This document shows positions 15,991 to 46,084 of a stretch of DNA of 64,000 nt, piece after piece. The DNA is from Ulva prolifera. Lineage: Eukaryota; Chlorophyta; Ulvophyceae; Ulvales; Ulvaceae. The notes beneath the pieces were generated by a model. It did not search any database and was not told where the DNA came from. It saw nothing but the letters and a program-made list of their open reading frames with translations. The DNA lies in assembly GCA_023078555.1 (NCBI GenBank), contig CM041202.1:4584022-4648021 (forward strand), read 5' to 3'. The position numbers and the translations under genes were made by a program. How positions within the stretch are numbered: position 1 is the first letter of the stretch; each line of letters begins with the position of its first letter.

Positions 15991-16751
<761 letters not shown>

Positions 16752-25900: not shown

Positions 25901-27498
25901 ACATGACACCACTGCTTTTGATCCTCCACAACAGAGGTCGGACTGCTCTGGTCAGACCATACCACTCCCCTGTTAACAGTATGACCCTCAAGAACAGGCT
26001 TCTTGAGGGAACACATTTTGAAAGCAAATACACGACACTTATCCTCATCCAGCTCCTGGTGTTTGGACGCATCCTCAATACCAGTAGCCATATCTCCGAA
26101 ACCGGGGACATACAACACACTCCTACGCGTATCTAAGTAAATCTTCTCGTGACGAAGACCCATAGTACTCAGTATGTTGTATGGACACTCAGGGGCATAG
26201 TACACACCCGGGATTTCCACATCCAGAGGATGCGTATTCCCATGCTCATCCACATAGGTGCCCAGGTTCACCTGAATGGTTCCCCTGCCCATAATGGGGA
26301 TCTTGCCTGGTCCCGCGGGATTGGCAGTTCTCTGGCACGGACCATACTCAGTGAACATGTCGCGATTGCCAACAATGTGAATGTCAGAACCGCTATCAAT
26401 GATAAAATTCCATGGTGCTAATGCATCATGATCCGGGAACTCTTCAGGCAGTTCTACAGCACAAACATCTTTGGCCGCGGCCTGTTTGCGCTGGGGGCAG
26501 TTCGCACGCAAGTGTCCCTTCTTCTTGCAGAAGAAGCAGGTCCTGGTCTCCTCGCGAGGAGCCTTGCCAGCGTCAAGCGCGGCGACCGCAGGACCGTCGC
26601 CTCGCTGCTGATTGCGCCAGCCTTGGCCTGGTTTGCCCGCGGGCGGTCCAGACCTAGCCTGCAGCCGCTGCTGCTTGTGCAAATCAGCATGCTCAGTCAA
26701 ACGTGCAATGATGACATGGGGGGAGGAGTGTTGGACTTCGCCGCGCACGGCATTGAACTCCTCCCCCACTTCTAAAAGTTTTAATCGGAGCCATCGCTGG
26801 CCCACATCGGCACCTAGTGCCTCCAATTGAGTGTACACACTCATCACTTCACCACAGTAAGACCCAACGTCTCTATTTCGCTGTGACAAAGAGTTGAAGC
26901 GACTCCACAGTCTGTGGATCTCGGCTTCAGTGCTAGGCCTATACTTTGCAGTGAGATAGGCCCATGCCTCACACAGATGTGACATGCGATAGACAGTGGT
27001 CCTATCCGCGTCAGGCAAAGACATAAGGACTTGAGTCCTTGCTCTAGCGTGGACACGTTGTTCGTCCGCGGACGGTGCGTGCTGCAACAGATGATCTAAC
27101 TCGAACTGTCCTAACCACAGAAAGACTTTCTGCTCGTACGCAACGAAGCTTTCGGTCTTAAAATTCCATTCAGGCAATTTTCCTTTAGACAAATCAGGCT
27201 CGTTACGTCCCCGAGATGCACGCAGCGCTTCGGTCAACGTCTCGAGTGTAATGAATGACTCAGTGTGACCATGATCGTTCACAACATGAGAGGAAAAGGG
27301 CACCTGCTGGCTGCTCTGCCCAGGCTGGGAAGAGGGACGTGGTCGGATAACTCGTCCGCCACGAAGTAACATGCCCGCGGGCTGTTCTTCGTCAGGGAGC
27401 TGCTGCTCAGCGTCCCTGTCGACGAATGGCTGCTGATCAGCCTCGTCCTGCCTCTCCTCGCGAGGAGAGTTGGCGTTGGAACGATCAGAGTTAGACAT
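22906..27498 (-). CDS. Element A gag-pol polyprotein (ends at a nonsense codon in RT)
   Basis: A long open frame. In order it holds Gag capsid, a CCHC zinc knuckle (CFFCKKKGHLRANC), protease (DSGSDIHIVGN), integrase (FHQSTWVL ... CHGCRIG, LHADLAGPI, HTDKGGEF, GMIERR), a long acidic linker with an Asp run, and reverse transcriptase (SGKWVFKIKRG, IDIQCAFLNG, LYGLKQAAREWHKAL, FLWVDD). I start it at MSNSDRSN, because alignment with B begins there, though the frame is open further upstream to 27615. It stops at TGA in WVDD-stop, where B has TTA (Leu) at the same codon, so it is a single point mutation in an otherwise good frame. Confidence 0.9.
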   Translation of the reverse strand: MSNSDRSNANSPREERQDEADQQPFVDRDAEQQLPDEEQPAGMLLRGGRVIRPRPSSQPGQSSQQVPFSSHVVNDHGHTESFITLETLTEALRASRGRNEPDLSKGKLPEWNFKTESFVAYEQKVFLWLGQFELDHLLQHAPSADEQRVHARARTQVLMSLPDADRTTVYRMSHLCEAWAYLTAKYRPSTEAEIHRLWSRFNSLSQRNRDVGSYCGEVMSVYTQLEALGADVGQRWLRLKLLEVGEEFNAVRGEVQHSSPHVIIARLTEHADLHKQQRLQARSGPPAGKPGQGWRNQQRGDGPAVAALDAGKAPREETRTCFFCKKKGHLRANCPQRKQAAAKDVCAVELPEEFPDHDALAPWNFIIDSGSDIHIVGNRDMFTEYGPCQRTANPAGPGKIPIMGRGTIQVNLGTYVDEHGNTHPLDVEIPGVYYAPECPYNILSTMGLRHEKIYLDTRRSVLYVPGFGDMATGIEDASKHQELDEDKCRVFAFKMCSLKKPVLEGHTVNRGVVWSDQSSPTSVVEDQKQWCHVAAAAIDLKRPNAGGAEVPHDAYLLEPAFLAHLSFHQSTWVLKRMQSNSDFYGDLNLKVDPEPMGNRCHGCRIGKVPAGKISANNRELLGQAKYPGEQLHADLAGPITPVGIGGVKYVLFVMCAFTRYTFIVGRRKKSEAAAMISYIIERIRVNVVKPGEPGVRILHTDKGGEFMVEALKLYLQRRGITHRTTPTADHRCNGMIERRIGIAFEAVRAVLLASGLPLFLWIECLASVIHGHNLTPCSALYHDKLAIMMKAQKAQRDANTAADVQQAERANKRMKKAERDKLREEEKRKWELLTMTELDEFLTRSCDRDIIPYMSFFRDTSVEVFQDLVKQQRPWGVEVYAYPRDDHLRKLSARGMVAYWVGAGLGPSMQRVYAQDVPGGRVVVVRQIMCTTDQMIRHVRKYDASAVVDKREPAEFANSLQVVFEGDDEGVRVTDSDVPSFVTDSTHDGGVLRRLREFSHAPPGHGRVPVMDMTFRQDALPDEAVYSPRFGAGSSAEVLRRDPARETPEVARHTMHRTRAIARAAAHPDVEVPPRVPGQARLSGAPPARTVEYVVTRNARLHDPGIKAASVLPMPSLSSDDSMDDDDDDDGPGIYDEDDADEMEEYTISDDERAAAHQNREAQRVRSGSNSAAASASGAGAVAKPLRGAEGLRPSWEDEPDEIEMESGSELGGEIQAAPSAAVGVDLPDEVRAIPAALPRIKINPLVRRRLVPLAVDVAAVHEPAGSDHASSETVVADIKSPGCNQDTSAAADCGVSGAGLKHQHGESGEQHSAQRRGSRRAAAARKQKPSDLDLPSMKEGLAGPDRDAWLRAMQEEVEALGEHGTFMLCYLPAGKKAISGKWVFKIKRGPAGEIQRYKARYVARGFSQVEGIDFFETWSPVGSYATLRVLLSIAAQEDLEIRHIDIQCAFLNGDLEEEVFVEQPPYFTDGTARVWKLHKTLYGLKQAAREWHKALVKVLAELGFVCAQSDPGLYVRTTGRCLIFLWVDD

Positions 27499-28153: not shown

Positions 28154-28158
28154 ACACT

Positions 28159-28454
28159 AAGTCTTTCATCACACTCGAGACGTTGACCGAAGCGCTGCGT
28201 GCATCTCGGGGACGTAACGAGCCTGATTTGTCAAAAGGGAAACTGCCTGAATGGAATTATAAGACCGAAAGCTTCGTTGCATACGAGCAGAAAGTCATTT
28301 TGTGGATAGGTCAGTTCGAGCTAGACCATCTGTTGCAGCACGCGCCATCTGCGGACGAACAGCGTGTCCATGCTAGAGCAAGGACTCAAGTCCTTATGTC
28401 TTTGCCTGACGCGGATAGGACCACTGTGTATTGCATGTCTCATCTGTGTGAAGC
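28159..28454 (+). pseudogene. Element B Gag, middle part
   Basis: Continues Gag of B after element A: SFITLETLTEALRASRGRN ... ADEQRVHARARTQVLMSL ... MSHLCEA, ending at the duplicated GAAGC where solo LTR S1 sits. Confidence 0.9.
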
Positions 28455-28808
28455 TGTCAGAAATGCTATTCTTTGTGCAGGGCGGACGCGCAGTCCTCAT
28501 TCAGGTCAGGTCAGGACAGCCTGCATCTCATACCTGCTGCGCACAGAGGTAGAACCGAGAGATGCTGAAGGGAAGTGCTAGTACCGGGAAACAGTAAAGA
28601 TAAAGGTTACAGATCTCAGTGTGCACATGCTTATATGCACACTGAACACTCAACACTCAAGGTTACGGCGGGAAACCCTCGCACGATCTCTCTCACTACA
28701 TCGAGACGATCCTAGCGGGCGGCTTACCCCTACACTGGATCCGTGGATCGTTCGTGCATGGGTGCACCTGTCACCACGCTGCTGCCCGCAGGCTCATGCA
28801 TTGTGACA
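28455..28808 (-). repeat. Solo LTR S1 in element B
   Basis: 354 bp, TGTCA...TGACA ends, minus orientation, flanked by a perfect 5-bp duplication GAAGC (28450-28454 and 28809-28813). Its TATA region reads CATATAAGC, like S2 and S3 and unlike elements A and B, so it comes from a sister subfamily. It was left by LTR-LTR recombination. Confidence 0.93.
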
Positions 28809-29572
28809 GAAGCATGGGCCTACCTGACTGCATAGTATAGGCCTAGCACCGAAGCCGAGATCCACAGACTGTGGAGTCGCTTCAACTCATTGTCACAGAA
28901 GAATAGAGATGTTGGGTCTTACTGTGGTGATGTGATGAGTGTGTACAATCTACTGGAGGCACTAGGTGCCGATGTGGGCCAGCGATGGCTTCGTTTGAAA
29001 CTTTTAGAAGTGGGGGAGGAGTTCAACGCCGTGCGCGGCGAAGTTCTACACTCCTCCCCTCATGTTACCATTGCACGTTTGACTGAGCATGCTGATTTGC
29101 TCAAGCAGCAGCGGCTGCAGGCTAGGTCTGGGGCGCCTGCGGGCAAACCATGCCAAGGCTGACGCAATCAGCAGCGAGGCGAAGGTCCTTCAATTGCCAC
29201 GCTCGACGCTGGCAAGGCTCCTCGCGAGGAGACCATGACATGCTTCTTCTGCAAGAAGAAGGGACACTTGCGTGCGAACTGCTCCCAGCGCAAACAGGCT
29301 GTGGCCAAAGATGTTTGTGTTGTAGAACTGCCTGAAGAATTCCCGGATCACGATGCGTTGAAACCGTGGAATTTCCTCATAGATAGCGGTTCTGATATTC
29401 ATATTGTAGGCAATCGCAACATGTTTACCGAGTATGGTCCGTGGCAGAGGACTGCCAATCCTGCGGGACCAAGCAAGATCCCCATTATGGGCAGGGGAAC
29501 CATTCAGGTGAACCTGGGCACTTATGTGGATGAGCATGGGAATATGCATCCTCTAGATGTGGAAATCCCGGG
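28809..29572 (+). pseudogene. Element B Gag C-terminus, zinc knuckle and protease
   Basis: Resumes with EAWAYLTA, then an in-frame TAG, then the rest of capsid. The zinc knuckle is CFFCKKKGHLRANC at about 29238-29280 and the protease motif is DSGSDIHIVGN. A frame change near 29160 is inferred because the ORFs 28890-29162 and 29235-29657 differ in phase. It ends at the duplicated CCGGG where S2 is inserted. Confidence 0.85.
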
Positions 29573-29920
29573 TGTCACAATGCATGAGCCTGCGGGCAGC
29601 AGTGTGGTGACAGGTGCACCCATGCACGGACGATCCGCGGATCCAGTGCAGGGGTAAGCCGCCAGCCGAGATTGTCTCGATGTAGTGAGAGAGATCCCGC
29701 GAGGGTTTCCCGCCGTAACCTTGAGTGTTCAGTGTGCATATAAGCATGTGCACACTGAGATCTGTAACCTTTCTTCTTACTGTTTCACGGTATTAGCATC
29801 TCTCTCTTACAATGTTCCTCGGTTCTACCTCTGTGCGCAGAAGGTATGGAACACTGGCCTCCTGACTTGATCTGAACTGAGACTGCGCGTCTGACCTGAC
29901 AAGATGTAGCATTTCTGACA
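29573..29920 (+). repeat. Solo LTR S2 in element B
   Basis: 348 bp, plus orientation, TGTCACAATGCATGAG...TTTCTGACA, flanked by a perfect 5-bp duplication CCGGG (29568-29572 and 29921-29925). It belongs to the CATATAAGC subfamily together with S1 and S3. Confidence 0.93.
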
Positions 29921-31507
29921 CCGGGTGTGTACTATGCCCCTGAGTGTCCATACAACATACTGAGTACTATGGGTCTTCGTCATGAGCAGATGTACTTAAA
30001 CACGCGTAGAAGTGTGTTGTATGTCCCCGGTTTCGGAGATATGGCTACCGATATCGAGGATGCGTCCAAACACCAGGAGCGGGATGAGGAAAAGTGTCGT
30101 GTCTTTGCTTTCAAAATGTGTTCCATCAAGAAACCTGTCCTGGAGGGCCATCCAGTTGATAGGGGAGTGGTGTGGTCCAGCCAAAGCAGCCCGACCACTG
30201 TTGTGGAAGAACAACAGTAGTGGTGTCATGTGGCCGCTGCGGCGATCGACCTGAAGCGCCCCTATAATGGGGGACTTGTGGTCCCACATGATGCTTACTT
30301 GCTGGCACCTGCATTCCTAGCTCATTTGTCGTTTCACCAGTCGACTTGGGTCTTGAAGCGGATAGAGTCAAATAGTGATTTTTATGGTGGCCTAAATTTG
30401 AAAGTTGACCCCGAGCCAATGGGGAATCGTTGTCATGGCTGCAGAATTGGCAAAGTGCCTGCGGGCAAAATCTCAGCCAATAATCGTGAGCTCTTAGGCC
30501 AGGCGAAATACCCTGGCGAGCAATTGCATGCTGATTTGGCTGGTCCCATCACTCCAGTTGGGATCGGCGGTGTGAAATATGTTTTGTTTGTGATGTGCGC
30601 CTTCACCCGTTATACTTTCATTGTCGGTTTGCGTAAAAAGAGTGAGGTTGCGGCCATGATCTCTAACATCATTGAGCGCATTCCCATTCCCGAGAGCGCA
30701 TTCGGGCATTCCCTCCATGTTGTCTTTGAACAGGATAATGAGGGTGTCCGCGTGACAGACAGTGATGTCCCCTCAATCCTGGTTGACTCCACACATGACC
30801 GGGGAGTGTTGCGCCGTCTGTGTGAATTCTCGCACGCCCCCCCAGGTCATGGTAGGGTTCCCGTCATGGACATGACGTTCAGACAGGATTCACTGCCTGA
30901 TGAGGCAGTGTACTCTCCGCGTTTCGGCGCAGGCTCCTCTACTGAGGTGCTCCGGCGTGACCCTGCGCGGGACACACCGGAGGTGGCCAGGCACACCATG
31001 CATCGCGTGCGCTTGCTCGTGCAGCTGCCCACCCTGACGTTGACGTTCCGCCTCGGGTCCCAGGCCAGGCGCGCCTATTTCGGGCCCTTCCTGCCCGCAC
31101 TATCGAGTATGTGGTGACTCGAAATGCGCAGCTCCATGACCCTGGCATCGAGGCTGCATTTGTCCCGCCTATGCCTCCGCCGTCTTCTGATGATCCGATG
31201 GACGAAGATGATGACGACGAGGACGATGCAGATGAGATGGAGGAGTACACCATCAGCGATGATGAACGTGATGCGGCTCATCATAATCACGAGGCTCAGC
31301 GGGTCCGATCAGGGAGTAATTCGGTTGCGGCCTCAGCATCTGGCGCGGGAGCAGTAGCTAAGCCCTTGCGAGGGGTTGAGGGGCTGAGACCTTCCTGGGA
31401 GGATGAGCCAGATGAAATTGAGATGGAGTCCGGATCCAAAGTAGGGGGAGAGATCCAGGCTGCACCCTCTGCCGCTGTTGGGGTTGATTTGCATGATGAG
31501 GTAAGAG
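29921..31507 (+). pseudogene. Element B integrase (deleted) and acidic linker
   Basis: Continues with GVYYAPECPYNILSTMG and integrase N-terminus (FHQSTWVLKRI ... CHGCRIGKVPAG, LHADLAGPITPV). At about 30688 the frame jumps from SNIIERI to FGHSLHVVFEQDNEG, so relative to A about 0.8 kb encoding the rest of the catalytic core is deleted. The frame is preserved and continues through the linker to the duplicated GGTAAGAG, where transposon T is inserted. Confidence 0.88.
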
Positions 31508-31610
31508 TAAGGCTGGCCCTGAGGGGTATATTGGGTTCCATATATCGGTATAAGGGTATATATTCTTATACCCTTGGTATAAAAGTATAGGATAAAGGTA
31601 TAATGAACGT
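31508..31610 (+). repeat. Left end of transposon T with subterminal GGTATA motifs
   Basis: Tip TAAGGCTGGCC, then GGGTATA, CGGTATAAGGGTATA, TATACCC, GGTATAAAAG and AGGTATAA within about 100 bp. These mirror the motifs at the right end and are likely binding sites for the recombinase or transposase. Confidence 0.75.
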
Positions 31611-32996
31611 TATCGATTGTAGAGACGCAACGAAAACTCGGATCACACAAGTAATTAGATATTTAGAAAGCCCTTGTTCTTGTGGTCTGTATAGATGTCA
31701 ATAGTTGTCAGTTCATATAAATAGGCACTGTGTAGACATCGAATAATGGTTTGGTTCAGAGTGGAAAAACATTCAATGACTCACTCACTTTCCAGAATTG
31801 ATTCTAATTCGCTCACAAAGTTTCAGAGCAAGATAAAAACATCGTTGGAATCTACATGAACAGTAGTTTACGCCTATACAAGTCACTGAATTGACTGGCG
31901 ACGTGTATGATGGTCAAGAGACAGTATCAGCAGGACCTATTCCGGCCCGTCCACAACCCATTCACAGCCTGTTCACGGCTCTTTCACAGTGCATGCACAG
32001 CACATTCACCTATTCTTGTTCTATAGTGCTCAGCATTATTTAAGTGATCCATGCTAGCTGCCTGAGCTCGTCAATTGAAGCAAGCGTGATCATGTGCTGA
32101 CTCGCTCAAGGGACATGGCATTCCTAGCAGCAGTATGTATACATATCGGGACTATAGCAGTATATATATACATACTGAGAGTATGGCAAGATATATGTGT
32201 CCGATCTGTGCGTGCCGGACACTCAGCTCGCTCTGGACAGCGCACCATGCGATCGATGCTACTGGCCGTAGTCCACGTACACAGCAACCAAAAGCACACA
32301 AATGGCATACTTCGTTACAATTAACGCACGAGGGCTCACTTGACTTCGCAACTGTTCTTTTAACCTGAGCTGCGCGACGCGTGCCCGAGTGTGTGGTCAT
32401 TCGCTTGACACTTCGACAGGCTGCCGAGCTGACAACCTTGCCAACATGACTGCATACAAACTTGAACGCGTGTGTGCGGACACTTGGGACCTCGACAACG
32501 CACAGCCTGGTCCAAGCTGATCCAGGCTTCGCTTTGGACGACAGGACTGTCAGTATGTTACGCACAACTTACGAAGACGACAAAGCCACATTGTTGAACT
32601 AAATTGCGGACCGCGGATCGTTTTCAGTCTCCTCTGTGCATCCCTGACGACTAGAACGGATGTTTATCGTGCCTGATGTCACAGTAACGCATGGAGTCGC
32701 CTCAAGCACAGATCCACACATATTTAATGCACTGGTAGGCTACGTAGTCCCACTATACCCCCGTTGCTGTGGGAATAATGTTCTGCAAGGGTATATCACA
32801 GCCTAGAGCATACACATTGACTACCCGGTAAGGGGCTACGGGTAGTGCGGGGAGGATTGAGATATCGAGGGTCAGGGCTAAGGCAGCCTTAGCCTGGTGG
32901 CAGCCAGACGGAGCACTGCAGTGATCATGAAAGCCTATACGCAGCGCAAATCATCTATGCATATTGTTATATTTAGGTATCTGCCCATGTATCACA
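31611..32996. other. Transposon T 5' non-coding region
   Basis: About 1.4 kb with no convincing coding sequence. A GGTATA-like cluster recurs near 32750-32800 (CTATACCCCC, GGGTATATC), and GGCTAAGG/CCTTAGCC makes a short hairpin at about 32877-32894. The promoter of the downstream recombinase gene should lie here. Confidence 0.4.
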
Positions 32997-35900
32997 ATGC
33001 TTTGGTATGCAGTCCTTGATTCCCTGGCGTGGATGGCTGGGTGCTTGGTGAAGGCACAACAGCCCCCTTCACACGTGGGAGATGTTCCATCTGAGAGTAT
33101 ACGCATCGGTGCTGCTGCCATAGAGACCTTGTTGTTTGTGCAGTTTTTTCAGTATCAGCTTTGGGGCAGGGCAACAACAGGTATGAAATTGCAATTTAAA
33201 TTGCATTTCATTACAATATTGGGTGTGACAGTGTTACAGTGATCTCGAGAGTTGTGACATAATGTTGATGTGCAGCCTTGAAATGGTTGCAACTTGGGCT
33301 GTCTCCGCACAGTACAGGGGCATGGGCCATCTTGCTTTTACAATTTACTGACCAATATGGCGACCTCTCTGGTCCCATGGTGAATGTGGAGGAATTGGAC
33401 CTACCTCTGGACCAAGTGTGTGAGGCATGCGCTCAAGTAGCTGTAGTTCTTGGCGAGGAGCCTCGCTCAAAGAGCTTCCTCGACGCTCTTGCGGAGGAAC
33501 CTGCAAAGAGTTTGTTGGCGTTAATGAAAGAGAGTCGCACTGCATGGCATGCCCGGATCCATTCCGTCTTCATGAGCATATACGATAAGCTCACTAATGA
33601 TGAACAGTACAAAAGTATGTCAACTAAGCTCCTGTGGCAAGCACGCTTTGTGCCTTTCATGTTGATAGCATCCATTGTCTGCAGTATCCGTTGGCTCGCT
33701 GGGTCGGAAAACGCTGGACGAGATTCATGCCCTCGATCGCACAAGCAGCATGCTCCGGAAAGTACATTGGACGGATTGGCCAACTTTGAGGTATCTGGGG
33801 GAGCTCAAGCGGCTCGGAGTGGCCACAACATTATACGAGCCTTTGACATTGACAGATGGCATCTGCTTCGGCGTTTACATTCAAAGCAGTGCTTTCACAT
33901 CGGTACTTCTCGAGAAAGCCCTGTTTTTTTTCATGCCTCACCCCATGTAGCACGAGCCTCAACAATTGTTTGATAGCACATGGCTATGTTGGACATCATG
34001 CAATCTCAGATGTATGCATGGTATGCAGGGGTCCCTGTCGTTCTTCAACAACATTACCAATGGCATTGTTCACTTGACAAAGCAATGGGAATTGATTTAT
34101 GGACACAAGTTCCCTTCCAAGGCATTCAGAAGCACTGCTGCTTACAAAAACCACGCTCAGTCGCTCAGCAAAGAGATTGATGCAGCTCGGTGCGTCAGTT
34201 GTAAGTTGTCAGCCCCAGTATCCATGCAACAGCCATTGAATGCGGACACTGCCTCAGGGACCCATTCGCCGTCACAAAAAATACTTGCCTGTACCTACCA
34301 ACCCTGCGAGAGAAAAAAGAGAGCATCATGATATTGTGGCAGCTTGGCATAAAGAATCGTGAGAATCGAGCCACGTCAGGTGTTCAAGTGAAGAAGGCAT
34401 ACCAGTGTGGTCCAAGTTTGAAAGACCAGCTTGGGAATGAATCAACTGGGTATGTGTTTTGGATGTGTGTGCCTTTTGGAGCTCATGATAACACATCTAC
34501 ATACTCCGACTCGATATGGAGAACAGGAGTCAACGAAGCACTTTAAAAATTCACCTGTTATGTAGGAGGCAGCAGAGCATGTTAAAGCCAACGCTAGGCA
34601 GGGGCAAAGAGTTTCGTGACTTCAAGATCGGGATGATGTTTCCATACATCAATCACTATGTGCGACCATGCATCATGCCCATGGTTGTTTTTGCGATCCA
34701 TGGCGCCAAGACAAACAAGGAGGGGAAGCATGCCGACTGTCGAGCTACAACCTATGGCCACGAATTCTTGTTGTGTCCGTTGGTGCATTTATCAATTCAT
34801 ATGCTCAAACGCCTGGTTGTTGGAGACGGTCAGCCATTGCCCGAGAGTGTGGCTGACAGCAATTCATGGTAAAGCATCCTGGAGTCCCGAATGTTTGTTG
34901 CGACTTGTGGAGATCTCTTAACAACATCAAGTGCGTGTAGGATGCAAGCTCGGCTGGTGACATGCCGTTTCCCGGAGCCACCATTCGACCCAGACAGCAA
35001 CAACCCCACAAACGTTATGGATACACGGATTCGGACAATGCAAAAGGTGTGTTTCGGCCGAAGCTTGCCCAAGAAGCAGCACACAAATCGGCGCGATGGG
35101 GCAGAGGAGATTGTGGAGAAGGGGTGTGTCTCATGAACCTGTTGTTGAACATGAGTGGACTGCCACCCTAAAGGCAGGAATGATGATCACTGTTTTAGCA
35201 CGTAGACCATTCATGAATGCGTATCATGCAGAGGGAGTGAGATGGATGCTGCACGGGCGGGCAAGTGGAACCAGACCACTTTGGGGCACACTTACAACAC
35301 AACCCCTTCATCAAGCACCTTGTGCTGGACGCATGACTGGCAATCGCCAAAACATTACCTGCCCAAGCATGGGATCCTCGTGCCTCCAGATGCGATCAAG
35401 GCCATGATGTACACAACAGTGATCCAGCTGAACGACGGCAACCAGCTTGACATCGTGAAAGCCAAAAAGTGGGTGGAAACAAAGGAGGTGCGACTCACAT
35501 TGATGTCACCTTGATGCAAATGGTTTACAGTCAACACATCATACATGGTAATAGCAGGTATAACTCTATATATAGGTGCAAGCCCGTCTTGCCGCCCAAG
35601 GAGACAACAATCTGGAGAAGTTCATCGATGTTCTATGCTTCCTTGCCATTGTTCTGGCGCAGGTCTGCTTACCTCATTCGACTTTTGGCTTGCTCGTGCT
35701 GCATGGCTCTGATCGAATGGTCCCTCCAGGCGCTACCCATCTTGTTAAGAATGTACCGAGAGCACTGGTTGTTTTATGATCATCCTTTGTATTTTGATGA
35801 AAATCGAGCCTTATTCGATGATGACCTGTGGGGGAAATGGGAGGATCTCCAGTGGCAGGTGGGCACCATTGATTACATGCTTCTCCGCTTCATTGAGCAG

Positions 35901-37186
35901 TCTGTGTCCGCGTGGCTCTCAGTGATGAATTGCCTGTAGCTCAAATCGAATATTCACACTTGCTCTGTGATCAGGTTTACCGCCTCTCCAATGATCACGA
36001 GGACGAATGCAAGCGGCTGCACATGACAGGGCACGAGATGCCACCATTTGAACCTCCAAGCTACATAATTAACAGAGCAGAGGCAATCGGTGCAACGTTT
36101 CTGATGGATCAAAGGGTTCCGGACGAGGTGATGGATCCCGCTGCACATGTCGCGCGGCTGGAAACCAAGCGTTTACGAGCACGAGAGTCGCAGGTGCGCC
36201 CCCAGTAAACGAAAAGTTGCCGGGAAAATCAATGAGCATGATCGCATGTTTCGTGCAAGTCACGTGATGATGTTACAGGTCGCACGGAGGCACTTATTGG
36301 CGACAGAGCACGACGACGATTCGCAAGTGACGATGCAGGTGATGATCGAGCGCAACAAAGCACGTCTCATTGAACTTCATCAAAGCACGATGGTGTGTCC
36401 TTCATGATGCTGCTTGACACCAAGCATCAGATCTTCGCATACACATGCATGGTGCTGTGGAGAAGGGGTCATCAAAGGCCTGCTTGGCATGATGCGGTGC
36501 AAAACAACGCTGGCCACATGGCATTTCGGTTGCATACACCAATTGCATGTACTAAGTGCCCTGACTGATGCTATTGACATACCTGGCGGCACCACGGCTG
36601 AAGTGTCAGACGCGGGCCATTCCGATGGCATCAACACACATCAACTTGATACATGCAATCGACCTCTCCGTGTTTGTATTCAGGCGATTTGTCAGAGGGC
36701 TGAGTCTCCCATGGTGAGGTGCATGGCAGAAAGTGTTATGATGAATATGAGAACATGTGAAACACAACATGAGATGCTGGCTCAAGCCGTCGTGGCTCAG
36801 GATGAAGGTTCTTTATTGTTGCAATCAGACCGGCGCATGCAGGTGTTATTGCGCTGATGTTATGCCTTGCCTATCAACAGCGGCAATGCCCGCAACAACT
36901 TCAACATATGGTCTTTGTTTTGTAGGAGTGGAGCAGTTTAGCAGTTCGTTGCCAGTTGCAACATGTGCTCACTGCAGTGAGGAACCTTGCAGCATCCACT
37001 GAAGGCAACTGTGCAGCAACAGACTTACGTCTGGAGGGGATTGAGAACATGGTTGTGAAGTTGAGCGAAGGTCGGACTGTGGATTCTGCCACAGTGCAGA
37101 AAATCAACAACATCAACAACACACTCGAGCATCATCATCGCCAGCAACAAGGCATGCCGACCACCTTGGCATGCTATAGCACCTGA
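32997..37186 (+). CDS. Crypton-type tyrosine recombinase, multi-exon
   Basis: Proposed exons: 32997-33180, 33276-33614, 33685-33902, 34029-34189, 34258-34449, 34566-34868, 34941-35123, 35232-35487, 35576-35619, 35663-35858, 35975-36193, 36279-36338, 36684-36842, 36926-37186. All junctions are GT-AG and the frame stays open for about 924 codons. Visible motifs: LGRGKEFRDFKI (Arg box), FAIHGAKTNKEG (beta-strand Lys region), HEFLLCPLVHLSIHML, the HxxR box HTNR (35080-35091), ARAGKWNQTTLGHTY with the likely nucleophile Tyr at 35293-35295, and HYLPKHGILVPPDAI. This order matches Crypton/NDC10-II-like recombinases, which cut and rejoin DNA through a Tyr-DNA bond. A coiled coil (VQKINNINNTLEHHH) ends the protein. 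The 43-bp intron 35620-35662 is short; without it there is a one-base frameshift after FIDVLCFLAIVLAQ, so this spot is unresolved. Confidence 0.72.
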
Positions 37187-37239
37187 TGCGCACTTTCCAC
37201 TAGCTGTAACAGTGATAACTGTTCAGGCTTAATAGCGAT

Positions 37240-39738
37240 CGCCGGGACGGAGCCTCCACCACCCCGAGATCAGATTCGCCACGACATGATGCCAATCAGT
37301 GTGTTGAAAAGTCTGGATCAATGGGGCTATCGATGCTCTAGTGTGAAGGTGGGCGTCCTTGCCACTGTTTACAGTGTTGCTTCTTGCAGCCACGACATCT
37401 TCCATATGCAGATCGACCATGCTGTGACAGCGGTTCTGCAAGGCTACACCTACAAGGAAGACAAATACGGACCGTTGGGGCTTGGCGACTTCAAGGTTGG
37501 TGGGAAACACTTCGGGAGGTTCATCGATGAGGTGTGCAAGAAGGTTGCTCATACAGGTAGATCTGACCAGGTAGCACAAGCACTACGTGCTGACGCCGTG
37601 CTGGTACAAGCATCGCAGGTATACCGTCGCCCTGCATGATCGCTGTGATGGCCTGTTTGTATTTCACAATACAACATGCATGTGCTGTACAGCTAAAATT
37701 CTCCACGTGGCTCATGTGTGGCATGTGTTGCTTTGCAGGTTGCGCCCTGTGCAGTGGAGTCCGTTCCGCGGTCCACATTTGACACCGCTCATTGTTTGAA
37801 ACAATTGCGCGTTCTGATCCTGGAGATTTCTGCAATGAGAGTGCTCATGAGCCTGAACCTGCCGTACATGAGCATCACAACAAAGGGGACAGGTGTCCCG
37901 GTTGCAAGACTTCCACTTCCCCAACATTATTTGGCAGCTAATTTGTCAAGTATCAAAGGTACTATCAGCCTTGCACGCTGGATTTCAGGAATCCTGGCTG
38001 AAGACAATGCGCAATGTGACAAGACCGCTATACGGAGGTTCATCTACTACTGTGCTACATCGCGCAAGAACAATCGGTCGCACATGACCCTAGAAGCCCA
38101 AGTGTGCACTTGTTTACCGATAATCTTTATGCTGGTGAAGTAGGCGACGCAGTTGATACCTGCATCACGACCGCGGCATGCAGGTAGATGGCCTGACTGT
38201 CCAGGCCCGAGTCCCCAATGAAAGGTATTGTCAGCCGAGAGTTGGTGAGCGAGCTGAGTCCACAGAACATCCTGCTGTCATGAACGAGGCAGTATGCGAG
38301 GATGCTGGAGACATTGAGGAACATCACACCCAAGACGAATCCGCAATGCTGTGCAATATGGAGAATGTACCATCGCAGCAAGAGTGCTGGCCTATGGATG
38401 AATCCGGAGACAGGCAAATCGACACTCAGACACAAGCTGCTTGCAACATGGCAGAGCCAGAGCTGGCTCAGGGTCACGTCACAGCTGAGTCGCAACAGCT
38501 CGGGCCGGATGCAGCTACACCTAATACTGCTGCTGCACCATTGGATCTTAGCATTGCACCTGCTTCGACACCTACTCCGGCCTCATCATGTTTCAACTTC
38601 CAAGGTCACGACGTGACTGCTGCAGTGCTTGCAATGTCTGATCGGGCTTTGTCCATGCATATGCCAGGTGCAGTGGATCACTCCTGCACTCATCCTTTGG
38701 AGCCGGCTCCTTTCCAGTGCCAAGGTGTGATTGCCAGAATGCGATACGTTCTTTGTTATTTGTTCAGGATGTTCGTGGACGCCCGATTGTGTTACGGATG
38801 TGTTGTGTTCAGAGCGCTCACCGACCAGCAGCGATCGGCTTAATTCTCTCACGTCCGCCATAAACAACGCAACAACGTCAGCACGTTTAAAAACCCTGGT
38901 AGACTCTGCGAGTCATGAGATCGGCACAGGTATCAGCAATCATGATTGGACGATTGGTCATTTGAAGGCAGAGTTGCTCAAGGCAAAGCAAGATGGCGAC
39001 AAGCCCATCCGATTCAGGTATGGCAAAGAGAGCATGAAGTATACGTGGAAGAAGCCAAATCCTCCTGGCGGGCAGAGCTGCAGCCAATCAGAGGATGCTG
39101 CAAACAGTCGCGTCGTTTTGTTCACCGACCTTTTTGCTGCCGTGGCTTTGCATGGCGGGATCACCAAGGTGTGTGACGAGCTGTCTGTCTGCTCTGTATA
39201 AGCAATGATCCAAAGCTCTGTATCAGGCCATTCAATTTTGCAGGTGTTCTCAGGGCAACAAGCACCCAAATATGGAAGCGAAGCGTATGCACGCTCATGC
39301 GCGTGTCTGATTGACCTCAAGCTACTGTCATTGCGTGAATCGGTTGCACCGCCATGTGAACGGGACGTTGGGACCGTGAGGTACAGATACCATCAAGTGT
39401 GATCACATACATGGGATTGTGTTGTTCATGTGAATCATGCACGTCTGTGATGTGTGTGCCATACAAATGCTACAGTCATCATCGCAGGTCAGAGGTGAAT
39501 GATATATCAATAGGTTGATGTGTGCAGGTGCCAGATAATGCACTACTTTCTCAAACACTGCAAACTCATCGAGGAGGCAGCGGCGCTCAAGAGAGTTTGT
39601 GATCATGCCGCACCTGGAGAAGACAGCCCCACGGTCAAACTCCTAATCGTCTTGATGGAGAGCATGAACAGAGTAGAATGCAAATCGGCAGAAGAAGTTA
39701 CCCAGCATGAGCCATGCAAACGCCCACGAATTGAGTAG
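37240..39738 (+). CDS. Unrecognised multi-exon gene downstream of the recombinase
   Basis: Plus-strand coding segments separated by likely introns. About 37286-37640 includes MMPISVLKSLDQWGYRCSS and HFGRFIDEVCKKVAHTGR. 37739-38143 follows a TTTGCAG acceptor. 38178-38730 is an acidic Gln/Glu/Ala-rich linker. 38840-39201 includes WTIGHLKAELLKAKQDGDK and GKESMKYTWKKPNPPGG. The last segment follows GTGCAG at 39529 and ends with KRPRIE-stop at 39738, a basic tail. I did not resolve exon borders or frame, and recognise no family. The lysine-rich part could be the C-terminal DNA-binding part of the recombinase if the stop at 37186 is spliced out. It may also be separate cargo. Confidence 0.4.
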
Positions 39739-39908
39739 AGTACCCAACTGAGCTGGAGTGTTGTTGTGATTCTAAGGGCGGGCAATATAGGCGCCTTTGC
39801 TGTTTGTGTGGGATATGTACAATATAGGATAGAGATTCCCACAGGCACGGCGTCTATGTTGCAACTTTGCCGATAGTTGAGAAGCATTTGCCCACATTGT
39901 AATTCGAA

Positions 39909-39921
39909 CCCCCCCCCCCCC
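39909..39921 (+). repeat. Poly(C) run of 13
   Basis: Thirteen consecutive C within the non-coding interval between the last exon of T and its minisatellite. Confidence 0.95.
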
Positions 39922-40151
39922 GATGCGTGTTCATTGCTGATCAAAATTTCGCTGATCAAATACTCTTGGTAGCACTTGACAATAATGTGCAATTGAGTCC
40001 CTGGATGCGGTCCACACACATGTGCATATTGTTACTGCACTGTGACGGCTTCTTCACGAGAAGATGTGCTAGAAACGTAAGCATTAGCCTGCTGCCAGCA
40101 GGGCCACACGGTCTGATGTGCAGACCTGCCCTCATAATGCCCGAGCTGTTG

Positions 40152-42585
40152 GCAAGCAGTGCTGGAATGCTTCAAAGCTGCTGCACACAACCAACTCAAC
40201 AGCAGTTGTGAGTGTCAGCCCCATGTGGCATCACACACACATACACAGCAGAGGGGCATGTGCAGCTACAAGTGGCAAGCAGTGCTGGAATGCTTCACAG
40301 CTGCTGCACACAACCAACAACCCAACAGAAGTTGTGAGTGTCAGCCAGCCCCATGTGGCATCACACACACATACACAGCAGAGGGGCATGTGCAGCTACA
40401 AGTGGCAAGCAGTGCTGGAATGCTTCACAGCTGCTGCACACAACCAACAACTCAACAGCAGTTGTGAGTGTCAGCCCCATGTGGCATCACACACACATAC
40501 ACAGCAGAGGGGCATGTGCAGCTACAAGTGGCAAGCAGTGCTGGAATGCTTCACAGCTGCTGCACACAACCAACAACCCAACAGCAGTTGTGAGTGTCAG
40601 CCCCATGTGGCATCACACACACATACACAGCAGAGGGGCATGTGCAGCTACAAGTGGCAAGCAGTGCTGGAATGCTTCACAGCTGCTGCACACAACCAAC
40701 AACCCAACAGCAGTTGTGAGTGTCAGCCAGCCCCATGTGGCATCACACACACATACACAGCAGAGGGGCATGTGCAGCTACAAGTGGCAAGCAGTGCTGG
40801 AATGCTTCACAGCTGCTGCACACAACCAACAACCCAACAGCAGCTGTGAGTGTCAGCCAGCCCCATGTGGCATCACACACACATACACAGCAGAGGGGCA
40901 TGTGCAGCTACAAGTGGCAAGCAGTGCTGGAATGCTTCACAGCTGCTGCACACAACCAACAACCCAACAGCAGCTGTGAGTGTCAGCCAGCCCCATGTGG
41001 CATCACACACACATACACAGCAGAGGGGCATGTGCAGCTACAAGTGGCAAGCAGTGCTGGAATGCTTCACAGCTGCTGCACACAACCAACAACCCAACAG
41101 AAGTTGTGAGTGTCAGCCAGCCCCATGTGGCATCACACACACATACACAGCAGAGGGGCATGTGCAGCTACAAGTGGCAAGCAGTGCTGGAATGCTTCAC
41201 AGCTGCTGCACACAACCAACAACTCAACAGCAGTTGTGAGTGTCAGCCCCATGTGGCATCACACACACATACACAGCAGAGGGGCATGTGCAGCTACAAG
41301 TGGCAAGCAGTGCTGGAATGCTTCACAGCTGCTGCACACAACCAACAACCCAACAGCAGTTGTGAGTGTCAGCCCCATGTGGCATCACACACACATACAC
41401 AGCAGAGGGGCATGTGCAGCTACAAGTGGCAAGCAGTGCTGGAATGCTTCACAGCTGCTGCACACAACCAACAACCCAACAGCAGTTGTGAGTGTCAGCC
41501 AGCCCCATGTGGCATCACACACACATACACAGCAGAGGGGCATGTGCAGCTACAAGTGGCAAGCAGTGCTGGAATGCTTCACAGCTGCTGCACACAACCA
41601 ACAACCCAACAGCAGCTGTGAGTGTCAGCCAGCCCCATGTGGCATCACACACACATACACAGCAGAGGGGCATGTGCAGCTACAAGTGGCAAGCAGTGCT
41701 GGAATGCTTCAAAGCTGCTGCACACAACCAACTCAACAGCAGTTGTGAGTGTCAGCCCCATGTGGCATCACACACACATACACAGCAGAGGGGCATGTGC
41801 AGCTACAAGTGGCAAGCAGTGCTGGAATGCTTCACAGCTGCTGCACACAACCAACAACCCAACAGCAGTTGTGAGTGTCAGCCAGCCCCATGTGGCATCA
41901 CACACACATACACAGCAGAGGGGCATGTGCAGCTACAAGTGGCAAGCAGTGCTGGAATGCTTCACAGCTGCTGCACACAACCAACTCAACAGCAGTTGTG
42001 AGTGTCAGCCCCATGTGGCATCACACACACATACACAGCAGAGGGGCATGTGCAGCTACAAGTGGCAAGCAGTGCTGGAATGCTTCAAAGCTGCTGCACA
42101 CAACCAACAACCCAACAGCAGTTGTGAGTGTCAGCCAGCCCCATGTGGCATCACACATACATACACAGCAGAGGGGCATGTGCAGCTACAAGTGGCAAGC
42201 AGTGCTGGAATGCTTCACAGCTGCTGCACACAACCAACAACTCAACAGCAGTTGTGAGTGTCAGCCCCATGTGGCATCACACACACATACACGGCAGAGG
42301 GGCATGTGCAGTTACAAGTGGCAAGCAGTGCTGGAATGCTTCAAAGCTGCTGCACACAACCAACTCAACAGCAGTTGTGAGTGTCAGCCCCATGTGGCAT
42401 CACACATACATACACAGCAGAGGGGCATGTGCAGCTACAAGTGGCAAGCAGTGCTGGAATGCTTCACAGCTGCTGCACACAACCAACAACTCAACAGCAG
42501 TTGTGAGTGTCAGCCCCATGTGGCATCACACACACATACACGGCAGAGGGGCATGTGCAGTTACAAGTGGCAAGCAGTGCTGGGA
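40152..42585 (+). repeat. Minisatellite, about 19 tandem units of 122-130 bp
   Basis: A tandem array of a unit containing GTGCTGGAATGCTTCACAGC, TGAGTGTCAGCC, CATCACACACACATACACAG and GCAGAGGGGCATGTGCAG. Length variants differ by small indels (CCAG in CAGCCAGCCCC; AACAACCC versus ACTC). Units are nearly identical, so the array expanded recently. It gives long overlapping Gln/His/Ser-rich ORFs in all plus frames, which are by-products of the repeat. Confidence 0.97.
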
Positions 42586-42634
42586 TGCTGGTGGGCAGGG
42601 ATGCTGGTGGGCAGGGAGCCTGGCATTGGAAACT

Positions 42635-42703
42635 GTACGTGCCGTGAGTTGAACACGGGCCTCTTGGCTTGAAGCCAGCGCTCTTCCACTGAGCTACACG
42701 CAC
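42635..42703 (-). tRNA. tRNA pseudogene or SINE head with shortened anticodon arm
   Basis: 69 nt on the minus strand fold as acceptor GTGCGTG/CACGTAC (one G-U), D-arm GCTC-AGTGGAA-GAGC and T-arm CCGTG-TTCAACT-CACGG. A-box (TAGCTCAGTGG) and B-box (GTTCAACTC) are good. The anticodon arm is damaged: TGGC/GCCA closes a 5-nt loop, about two nucleotides short, so no anticodon can be assigned. It sits at the edge of the minisatellite, as if it headed a SINE-like unit. Confidence 0.6.
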
Positions 42704-42709
42704 TTCTGA

Positions 42710-43739
42710 TCTGATCCTACTGTTTCACGGGATATTGCCATGTGTGGCAGCGGTATGTGTTAAGGGCTTACGGACAATGTGATGTGATCTTGTGCTACAC
42801 GTGCAGGCTAGATTGAGACCACACCTGACACCTGCTGGTTACCTTCGACACCGATACATCCAGGATTTGGCACTACAGGTCGCGTTACTGCCGACGAGGC
42901 GATCGGCTGAGAATCGCACAAGCTCCCCTTAGCCACGTTGTATGCTCTGCCGTCTGCAGCGACACGTTGTGTCCCTGGTCCCGATGGAAAGGACATTGCT
43001 CACCAGCACATCTGGAACCTGCGCTGCATGCTATTCTATCGCGCTTTTTTGGGAATGCCTTGACGTGTGGGTGCGCCAAAAGATCGACGAGCATCAACAA
43101 GCATTCAAGACGTGCAGCGAACCCACAAATCGCCTTGCAGTTTTCTTGTACACACCATAAGAATTCACGTGCCTTGCATGTGCTAGGATCATGCCGCGCT
43201 GTACGCAACGGCATTGCAGCCGGAGTGCAGTATGACGACAGTCAACACGCCGAGACGGCTTCTTCCTCGAGCAATTGCTCCAGCCGTCCGACAGGATGGT
43301 TCGCTGGAGGCTGGAGGTCAAGATGAAGGCCAGACTGTGGGTCCAGTGGTGGGAATGCCCGCACAGCTGCCAACCCTCCCACCCATCCACCCACCCATCC
43401 AACAGCAGCCCGACGACAACGTTCAGAGATGGCGTTTCAACAGAAACAGAGACATACATATATTCCGCCGGTGCGCCACGCGACGTCGTCGTACGATGCT
43501 GTGAGGTTACGTGGAACGTGCGATTACGTGGAGCGTGACCGGAGCCAGTGATCTGCAAGCGACACACACAGGGCCACGCAGACCACCAGAGAGGTAAGAG
43601 AGAGGTAAGAGAGGTGTACCTCTGGCCGTACGTCGGTGTCGCGGTGGCCCGGTGTGCGTCGGTGTGCGTCGGCTGGGGGTAAGGGGCTAAGGGGCTACGA
43701 GATAGCGGGGCCCCGCTGCCCGCGGCGGCCGAGCGGGCA
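42710..43739. other. Transposon T 3' region, unassigned
   Basis: No recognised gene. ORFs of 96-157 codons on both strands overlap each other and lack motifs. At 43591-43611 the octamer GGTAAGAG occurs twice, identical to the target duplication of T. GGGGCTAAGGGGCTA repeats lie at about 43680. Confidence 0.35.
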
Positions 43740-43888
43740 AGTAAGACAGCCTGAATATACCCCTCTCAAGGGTATACCGACATATCGAGATTATACCCCT
43801 TATTCTGTTGACTTTGAACGTACACCGGTATATATACCCTATACCCACATACTGGTATAAACCCTTATACCGGTATAGGCCAGCCCTA
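43740..43888 (+). repeat. Right end of transposon T with TATACC motifs
   Basis: The tip is GGCCAGCCCTA. Inside are the perfect palindrome TATACCGGTATA (43866-43877), 11 bp from the tip, and ACACCGGTATATATACCC, TATACCCACA and ATACCCCTCT. The palindrome at this distance is matched in element U. Confidence 0.78.
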
Positions 43889-43896
43889 GGTAAGAG

Positions 43897-44617
43897 CCAT
43901 TTCGGCTGCTCTTCCCCGCATTAAAATCAATCCTCTTGTACGCAGACGCCTTGTTCCTTTGGCTGTGGATGTAGCTGCTGTGCATGAGCCCGCGGGCTCT
44001 CATCTTGCTAGTAGTGAAACAGTAGTAGATGACATTAAGTCTCCAGGCTGCAATCAGGACACATCAGCCGCAGCTGACTGTGGAGTGTCCGGTGCAGGCC
44101 TGAAGCATCAGTGTTTGGAGTATGGTGAGCAGCAGAGTGCTTAGCGTCGTGGGTCGCGCAGAGCAGCTGCCGCCAGGAAGCAGAAGCCTTCCGACCCTGA
44201 TATGCCTTCTATGAAGGATGGACTCGCGGGTCCAGACAGGGATGCTTGGCTGCGTGCCATGCAGGAGGAGGTGGAAGCACTGGGTGAGCACGGGACTTTT
44301 ATGTTGTGCTATCTGCCTGCGGTTACGAAAGCTATCTCGGGCAAGTGGGTGTTCAAGATCAAGCGCGGACCTGCTGGTGAGATTCAGCGGCACAAGGCAC
44401 GATATGTAGCTCGTGGTTTTTCTCAGGTAGAAGGAGTTGATTTCTTTGAGACTTGGTCCCCTGTCGGTAGTTATGCGACTCTGTGTGTGTTGCTGTCTAT
44501 TGCTGCTCAGGAGGATCTGGAGATTAGGCATATAGACATAAAATGTGCTTTTCTGAACGGCGACCTGGAAGAAGAGGTTTTCGTTGAACAGCCCCCGTAC
44601 TTTACAGACGGGACAGC
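43897..44617 (+). pseudogene. Element B linker end and reverse transcriptase start
   Basis: Resumes at the codons for ISAALPRIKINPL-type sequence and runs through LAVDVAAVHEPAGS, then RT (SGKWVFKIKRGPAGEIQ, ARGFSQVEGVDFFETW, IDIKCAFLNGDLEEEVFVEQPP). A TAG at about 44142 breaks the frame. It ends at the duplicated ACAGC where S3 is inserted. Confidence 0.88.
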
Positions 44618-44965
44618 TGTCACAATGCATGAGCCTGCGGGCAGCAGCGTGGTGACAGGTGCACCCATGCACGCACAATCTGCGGAACCGGTGCAGGGGT
44701 AAGCCGCCGGCCGTGATTGTCTCGATGTAGTGAGAGAGATCGTGCGAGGGTTTCCCGTCGTAACCTTGAGTGTTCAGTGTGCATATAAGCATGTGCACAC
44801 TGAGATCTGTAACCATTCTTATCACTGTTTCACGGTACTAGCTGTATCCTGATCTCCCCCCGCATTCCTCGGTTCTACCTCTGTGCGCAGCAGGTATGGA
44901 ATGCTGGCTGCCTGACCTGACCTAAGACTGCGCGTCTGACCTGCAGATAGAGAGTGTTTCTGACA
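44618..44965 (+). repeat. Solo LTR S3 in element B
   Basis: 348 bp, plus orientation, flanked by a perfect 5-bp duplication ACAGC (44613-44617 and 44966-44970). Same CATATAAGC subfamily as S1 and S2. It splits the RT gene of B between FTDGTA and ARVWKLH. Confidence 0.93.
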
Positions 44966-44970
44966 ACAGC

Positions 44971-46084
44971 ACGTGTATGGAAATTGCATTAGACTCTGTT
45001 TGGCCTGAAGCAAGCCGCTCGCGAGGGGCATAAGGCTTTAGTAAAGGTCTTGGCTGAACGGAAATTTGTGTGCGCACAGAGTGATCCTGGACTGTATGTC
45101 AGAAAAACCGGTCGATGCTTTGTTTTTCTGTGGGTAGATGACTTATTCATTTTCAGTTGCTCCGCGGGGCTGCAGGAAATCATCAGTGTCATTCTCACAA
45201 AATTCGAAGGTAGAGACTTAGGTGACCTTTCTTGGGCACTTGGCACTGAGATCACGCGTGATCGAAAGGCCAAAACAATCACAATGACACAACGTACCAA
45301 AATCCAGAATCTGCTGGACAAGTACAGTATGTCTGACTGTCGTAAATCTCCCACTCCCTTAGTGCCGCGGCAACAACCAAGGAGTGTGAAAGAGCATCCT
45401 GACCTGGAGAAAGCCAGTGCTGCTGAGCATTCCAGGTTCATGAGTGTTGTAGGGAGCATCCAGTGTATTGCAGGAGTGACACGACGTGACCTGAGCTATG
45501 TGGCACATGTCCTGGCCCGGCACATGTCTAGTAGTCTGAAGGAACATTGGTCTGCCGTGCAACATGTTCTGAGATACCTGCAGTCCACAAAGAATTTAGG
45601 AATAAATTTTGTAGGCTTTGAGGTACACGGGTGTTTACTAGAGGCTTTTTTAGATGCAGATTTTGCGAATTCTGCAGATATGAAGAGTGTGTCTGGTATG
45701 ATTGTTCGGGTGTATGGGAACTGTGTTCTCTGGCGTTCGAAGAAGCAAAGTATAGTGGCTGGGGATACAACAGAGGCTGAGCTCATTGCGATGAGTGCAA
45801 CAGCCAACGAGCTGATGTGGATGAAGCAGTTGCTTCTCGACGTGAAATTTATCCCACATAAGCCGACTCTGTGGGGTGATAATGAGAGTGCCAATTTCTT
45901 GGCTGTGAATGATGTGTCCACCGACAGATCCAAGCACATTCGTGTGCGGCACTTGCGAGTGCGGGAATATGTCCAGATGGATGAACTTAAGGTAGAATGG
46001 GTTGGCACTGTTGATCAGTTAGCATATGTGTTTACTAAGGTGCTGCCCGGACCTGCTTTGCAAGAAGTTCGTAATAAACTCTAG
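44971..46084 (+). pseudogene. Element B reverse transcriptase end and RNase H
   Basis: Encodes FLWVDDLFIFSCSAGLQ (active site), EITRDRKAKTITMTQRTKIQ, SYVAHVLARHMSSSL, then RNase H with WRSKKQSIVAGDTTEAELIAMSA, LWGDNESANFLAVN and HIRVRHLRVREYVQ. From 45050 it is an uninterrupted 344-codon frame ending TAG at 46084, so it serves as the reference for the lesions of A. It is untranslatable as part of B because of the upstream breaks. Confidence 0.88.

Follow-up and report, generated by a model that had tools for sequence, protein, structure and literature searches.

The window analysed here is a stretch of 64,000 nucleotides of Ulva prolifera (C7:4584022-4648021), and the genome searched with it comprises 88.9 Mb in 44 contigs. 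Within the window lies an interval of 12,381 bp, designated T (31508-43888), which is enclosed by two copies of the 8-bp target duplication GGTAAGAG, at 31500-31507 and 43889-43896. Its left tip, beginning at 31508, reads TAAGGCTGGCC; the right tip reads TAGGGCTGGCC when 43878-43888 are taken in reverse complement. A tyrosine recombinase gene is located inside. An earlier note on this DNA had described T as a 12.4-kb transposon with terminal inverted repeats (TIRs) whose only recognisable recombinase is of the Crypton type, and the duplication and tips it named were found exactly in place. T is almost certainly a nested structure, with a Crypton-type element in a non-autonomous hAT element and the hAT element in a Copia retrotransposon.

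Matches to the left end of T (193 bp) were found in at least 43 stretches of the genome and to the right end (189 bp) in at least 35. Thirty loci per end search were examined (60 in all, numbered L), the further end matches having yielded none. When T was mapped onto these loci, many copies of approximately 1.1-1.6 kb were found, in which 31508 to about 32804 was joined directly to about 43746-43888. The junction was reached in 46 loci and joined in 44, the remaining two (L001 and L031) being the window itself; the other 14 loci stop short of it and are uninformative. The 44 joined loci collapse to 26 distinct places, and in all 26 the segment 31508-32804 runs uninterrupted into 43753-43888. 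The tips and the 8-bp duplication therefore belong to a non-autonomous element of about 1.43 kb (1,433 bp without the Crypton), the left part of which is located at 31508-32804 and the right part, with its tip on the minus strand, at 43753-43888. The empty site TATATCACAGCCTGAATATACC was read in L013, L018, L021 and L056, and on the opposite strand in L012, L016 and L017; variants occur, such as TATATCGCAGCATGAATATACC in L005. Compared with these sites, the window is the same on the left up to ACAGCCT and on the right from GAATATACC, with 10.95 kb in between. The two halves of the window copy, once joined, can be aligned over their whole length with L004, L005, L012, L013 and L017.

In one of the two readings offered in the earlier note, the ends and the recombinase were parts of one new tyrosine-recombinase element with TIR/TSD ends; on this view the recombinase would act on the TIRs and 8-bp duplications. 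In its favour, both lie within the same 12.4 kb, bounded by a perfect duplication. It is refuted, by a criterion that the earlier note itself had set, by the direct joining of the hAT parts in 26 of 26 other places, the separate borders of the recombinase element elsewhere and the hAT remnants in copies with the same ends. Nor do copies with these ends always contain the recombinase, a point that the earlier note had proposed to test; all 26 other places do without it.

TAGGG-type tips are typical for hAT elements. A perfect 8-bp duplication was present at 14 of the 20 other tip pairs counted, pairs off mapped element ends (such as L001, L009, L048, L051 and L056) being excluded. Both ends lie within one locus in 18 places, of which 12 are perfect (L005, L010, L011, L012, L013, L014, L017, L020, L026, L042, L044 and L059), two have one mismatch (L004 and L008) and four show no match (L006, L018, L021 and L053). 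The two pairs with ends split over two loci are both perfect, with GTTATCAC (L019/L038) and TGCATGCG (L016/L035). The hAT dimerisation domain (PF05699) has 16 matches in the genome, three of which fall inside sister copies (L020/L052, L042 and L016/L035). In L020, which has the same tips and the perfect duplication CATATGAG, Dimer_Tnp_hAT reached 31.5 bits (cut-off 21.4) in a fragment containing LLAMHPTSASTERNWSLWGRVYTASRNSLSLERARKM, and shorter hAT remnants were found in further sister copies. The carrier of the Crypton is a hAT element. A genome search for the KDZ transposase (PF18758) gave no match, and the control genomes were likewise without one.

Very short copies with these hAT tips were also seen, one of 109 bp (L059, perfect duplication CTCATGAA) and one of 207 bp (L008, one mismatch). 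A cluster at C5:3.33-3.46 Mb (loci L024, L025, L027 and L028) comprises six left ends belonging to a related hAT element. Most are spaced at 23-26 kb; four lie on the minus strand and the other two on the plus strand, and the whole has the look of an amplified segment.

The hAT element itself interrupts a Copia retrotransposon. The flanks of T, joined over 153 bases, match all 40 scored stretches (of 317 candidates) over essentially their full length at 94-97% identity, so this insertion also has its empty sites. Together with the perfect duplications at 14 of 20 other tip pairs, these sites exclude coincidence as the origin of the ends of T. One of the matches lies in the window (23710-23862, minus strand) inside a frame of 1577 amino acids with RVT_2 at 160.4 bits (cut-off 31.6) and Pol_BBD at 35.2 bits; rve and Retrotran_gag_2 were below their cut-offs. 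The 5' part of the interrupted retrotransposon (28154-31507, plus strand, start approximate) is complementary, in pieces of 88-93% identity, to the minus-strand relative at 24000-27266. The 3' part (43897-46084, plus strand, end approximate) contains the frame 44993-46081, to the right of T, which matches RVT_2 with 57.7 bits against the same cut-off.

The tyrosine recombinase gene is located at 32997-37186 on the plus strand. A splice model based on exons conserved with a second Crypton family (family 2) gave 14 exons, 13 GT-AG introns and 934 codons without a stop. The catalytic residues are R377 (34600-34602), H513 (35080-35082), R516 (35089-35091) and Y548 (35293-35295), in boxes which, by motif, we take to be those of R, HxxR and Y. 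Spliced alignment of a family-2 copy likewise showed 13 introns, with one in-frame stop in that copy, and families 1 and 2 do not differ in the Arg, HTNR and Tyr boxes. The in-phase multi-exon gene with Arg, HxxR and Tyr boxes, as first noticed in the window, is thus upheld in the form of the 14-exon model. The recombinase is presumably active. In a Pfam scan of the 934-amino-acid protein at E values up to 10, the sole match was NDC10_II (E 2.9e-4, 20.4 bits), which was also found in two family-2 pieces with 12.7 and 25.7 bits; neither DUF3435, the domain of the Starship captain, nor GCR1_C, that of CryptonF, gave a match within the same limit.

The recombinase element has borders of its own, which were determined from three copies with different flanks. 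In the window it extends from 32802 to 43752 on the plus strand (approximately 10.95 kb), the other two copies being located on C7 and C2. The segment 32802-32970 has three matches in the genome, all 100% identical; of the matches to the right end (43560-43753), three cover it in full and seven in part. The left border CCTAGAGCATACAC is preceded by CACAG in the window, CATTA in the C7 copy and TCGGG in the C2 copy, and the right border GGGCAAGTAAGACAGCCT is followed by GAATATACC, ACATACATAC and GTGAGTACC in the same order. The element thus ends in CCTAGAGC and GTAAGACAGCCT; TATGG termini as in CryptonS were not encountered at these ends. The target core ACAGCCT is located at 32798-32804, at the left side of the element, and is repeated at its right end (43746-43752). 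The direct repeat shared with the target is ACAGCCT in the window copy, GCCT in two of the three copies and CCT (32802-32804 in the window) in all three.

The element has no terminal inverted repeats: an inverted alignment of its two ends scored 11.0, a value reached by 185 of 500 shuffles. Subterminal direct repeats were rejected (score 15.5, reached by 63 of 500 shuffles), and a palindrome-like arrangement of the window target (GGGTATAT..ATATACCC) was set aside when, by eye, it was not seen in the targets of the other two copies.

Over the recombinase region, the other two copies are 99.94% and 99.1-99.3% identical to the window. They measure 13,673 bp (C7) and 24,545 bp (C2, C2:4407595-4432139) from border to border, and the C2 copy probably contains another nested insertion, because 24.5 kb lie between its borders. 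In both, an extra 1.59 kb stands where the window passes from 32968 to 32970 (L091, C7:4688332-4690400; L093, C2:4430280-4432300). Its exon-like frames matched no family above the cut-off, and the difference is more likely due to a deletion in the window copy.

Downstream of the recombinase gene, exon-like open frames, again with no family over its cut-off, occupy 37187-39735 on the plus strand and are followed by a minisatellite of 19 copies of a unit of approximately 130 bp (40150-42589). A tRNA-like gene of 70 nt with anticodon TCA was predicted by ARAGORN on the minus strand (42634-42703); it matches the Rfam tRNA model with 53.7 bits, and the three Crypton copies do not differ from each other over this stretch. 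The same stretch also occurs outside the Crypton, with a 99% match at C10:952783 and an 87% match at C1:8917863. The frames of T scanned against Pfam, namely six short single-exon pieces (one mistyped), two hand-joined models and ten further frames, contained no DDE transposase or reverse transcriptase. The six short pieces had no match at all, and the ten further frames gave only matches below the cut-off to unrelated families, the best being PBP_N with 18.7 of 30 bits.

Family 2 is 61% identical to the window recombinase over 437 columns. Its right end, GGGCAAGTAAGATAGCAC (AACAC in one copy), is homologous to that of the window element. Of the seven places fetched, six (L094-L099) show this end against unrelated flanks; the seventh, L100 (C3:6125020), was too diverged to show a border and was excluded. 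Only right ends were compared for this family. A third relative of the recombinase was found at C8:4109237 (47%), where two loci lacked the expected overlap and were not assembled. The family-2 copy in L094 (C8:579990-580240) has its end in a sequence alignable with the Copia stretch that borders T (from about 43940), and Cryptons therefore also hit this Copia family directly.

Because the same borders occur in unrelated flanks with the CCT core as the only common target, and the family-2 right end lies against six different flanks, the anatomy of the element is that of a Crypton. Together with the catalytic boxes and the sub-cut-off match to NDC10_II, this anatomy points to a Crypton-type element. 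Another kind of tyrosine-recombinase element (Starship, DIRS, Ngaro or another) could be favoured on account of the large size (10.95 kb here, 13.7 kb between the borders of the C7 copy), the further open frames, the lack of protein relatives in the searches and a Pfam match below its cut-off. Against it, the only Pfam match is NDC10_II, and Cbf2/Ndc10 is described as derived from a Crypton in the available part of Kojima and Jurka (2011, PMC3212892). DUF3435 is missing within the E limit of 10, and neither a reverse transcriptase nor a DDE domain was met in the frames scanned, so that a non-Crypton origin is judged unlikely. It is possible, at somewhat less than even chances, that the Crypton-type element belongs to none of the F, S, A and I groups and stands for a deep lineage of green algae that is as yet unclassified. 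Such a lineage might be characterised by a length of 11-14 kb, a recombinase gene of 14 exons, additional genes and a 3-bp core, and its near-identical copies would indicate recent movement.

Several observations weigh against the nested hAT-Crypton interpretation as a whole. The duplication is imperfect or missing at six of the 20 tip pairs, two of which deviate by one mismatch. The window copy itself has no convincing hAT remnant, and no autonomous hAT element with these ends was found, the ends of the other hAT domains of the genome being left unread. All three NDC10_II scores (20.4, 25.7 and 12.7 bits) are below the Pfam cut-off of 26.3 bits. Protein searches with residues 250-720 and with a two-sequence alignment returned no relative among 7,249 and 8,000 candidates, and none was found among solved structures. 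The other two Crypton copies were compared only over the parts read.

A history in two separate insertions would account for the locus. The Copia retrotransposon would first have received the short non-autonomous hAT element (1,433 bp, with an 8-bp duplication), for whose movement some hAT transposase would have acted in trans. The ACAGCCT site of the hAT element would then have been the target of the Crypton-type element. As in known Cryptons, this element may have been excised elsewhere as a circle, the joint of which would read GTAAGACAGCCTAGAGCATAC, and the circle would have recombined at the short core, which has a 7-bp match here, with strand exchange presumably within CCT and without leaving inverted repeats. 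A late insertion of the Crypton into an older hAT copy would fit the identities: the nearest sister copies examined share no more than 95.1% with the hAT part (95.1% for L002, 93.2% for L004), but over the stretches compared the Crypton and its nearest copy share 99.94%; sister-copy divergence gives no insertion date.

A composite that now moves by its hAT ends and carries the Crypton along, as has been published for a Mariner element in MarCry-1_FO (PMC3212892), would gain from the preservation of both carrier tips, on which a hAT transposase could in principle still act. However, the window holds the only hAT-Crypton composite among the loci examined, neither the C7 nor the C2 copy of the Crypton is flanked by the hAT sequence of the window, and the T frames scanned contain no transposase domain, which makes such movement very improbable. 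Of the suggestion in the earlier note that a hAT- or KDZ-like carrier had captured a Crypton, the hAT carrier with a Crypton inside has stood; what was found is a single nested insertion and not a gene seen to travel with its carrier.

Elsewhere in the window, the frame 16752-18425 (minus strand) encodes a ceramide/diacylglycerol kinase that is 76% identical to a protein of Ulva partita, the next organism-named matches being green algae (Trebouxia and Coccomyxa). A fungal host is not supported; on the evidence of this single gene, the host is a green alga related to Ulva. A pure TG dinucleotide run of 105 units is located at 15992-16202.

Where TIRs, target duplication and a tyrosine recombinase share an interval, an ordinary nested insertion can be the cause, and the question is settled by sister copies that show the empty site; a false new class of transposon is thereby removed. 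What remains is a well-bounded, large green-algal Crypton family with near-identical copies, which could help to place algal Cryptons and to test core recognition. In the available part of PMC3212892, green algae are absent from Table 1, while the legend of Figure 2 has a Chlamydomonas suffix among the recombinases. Passages of PMC11630846 refer to Cryptons as a group and to Ulva in a different connection. No green-algal or Ulva Crypton was named in the titles or abstract beginnings among the matches listed, a scope outside which most subscription papers and Repbase fall. Further caution about such composites comes from the MCi-2A elements (PMC3627910, in its available part), which have a partial Crypton protein and target duplications and are of uncertain membership.

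The hAT element shares with other non-autonomous hAT elements the TAGGG-type tips, the 8-bp duplications and the presence of deletion derivatives, some of which keep a piece of the C-terminal dimerisation domain, and differs in that the window copy is split by a 10.95-kb insertion. Cryptons, as described in the available part of PMC3212892, are without TIRs and have short direct repeats of 4-6 bp; CryptonF has a C-terminal GCR1_C domain and CryptonS has terminal repeats of 5-6 bp, mostly with TATGG termini. The element in T agrees with them in its R-H-R-Y tyrosine recombinase, the lack of TIRs, a short direct repeat that recurs in the target, borders that stay the same where the flanks differ, and the presence of multiple families in one genome. 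It differs in the length of the repeat, which is CCT (3 bp) in all copies and 7 bp in the window copy, in that neither GCR1_C nor TATGG termini were found, and in its size of 10.9-13.7 kb, further open frames, minisatellite, tRNA-like gene and green-algal host. MarCry-1_FO of Fusarium oxysporum is described in that paper, from four copies, as a Mariner-Crypton fusion; its TIRs measure 16 bp, its duplications are TA, and it has a Mariner transposase of its own. Unlike this fusion, T is a single nested case with no transposase found inside; both have a Crypton inside the TIR ends of a DDE transposon.

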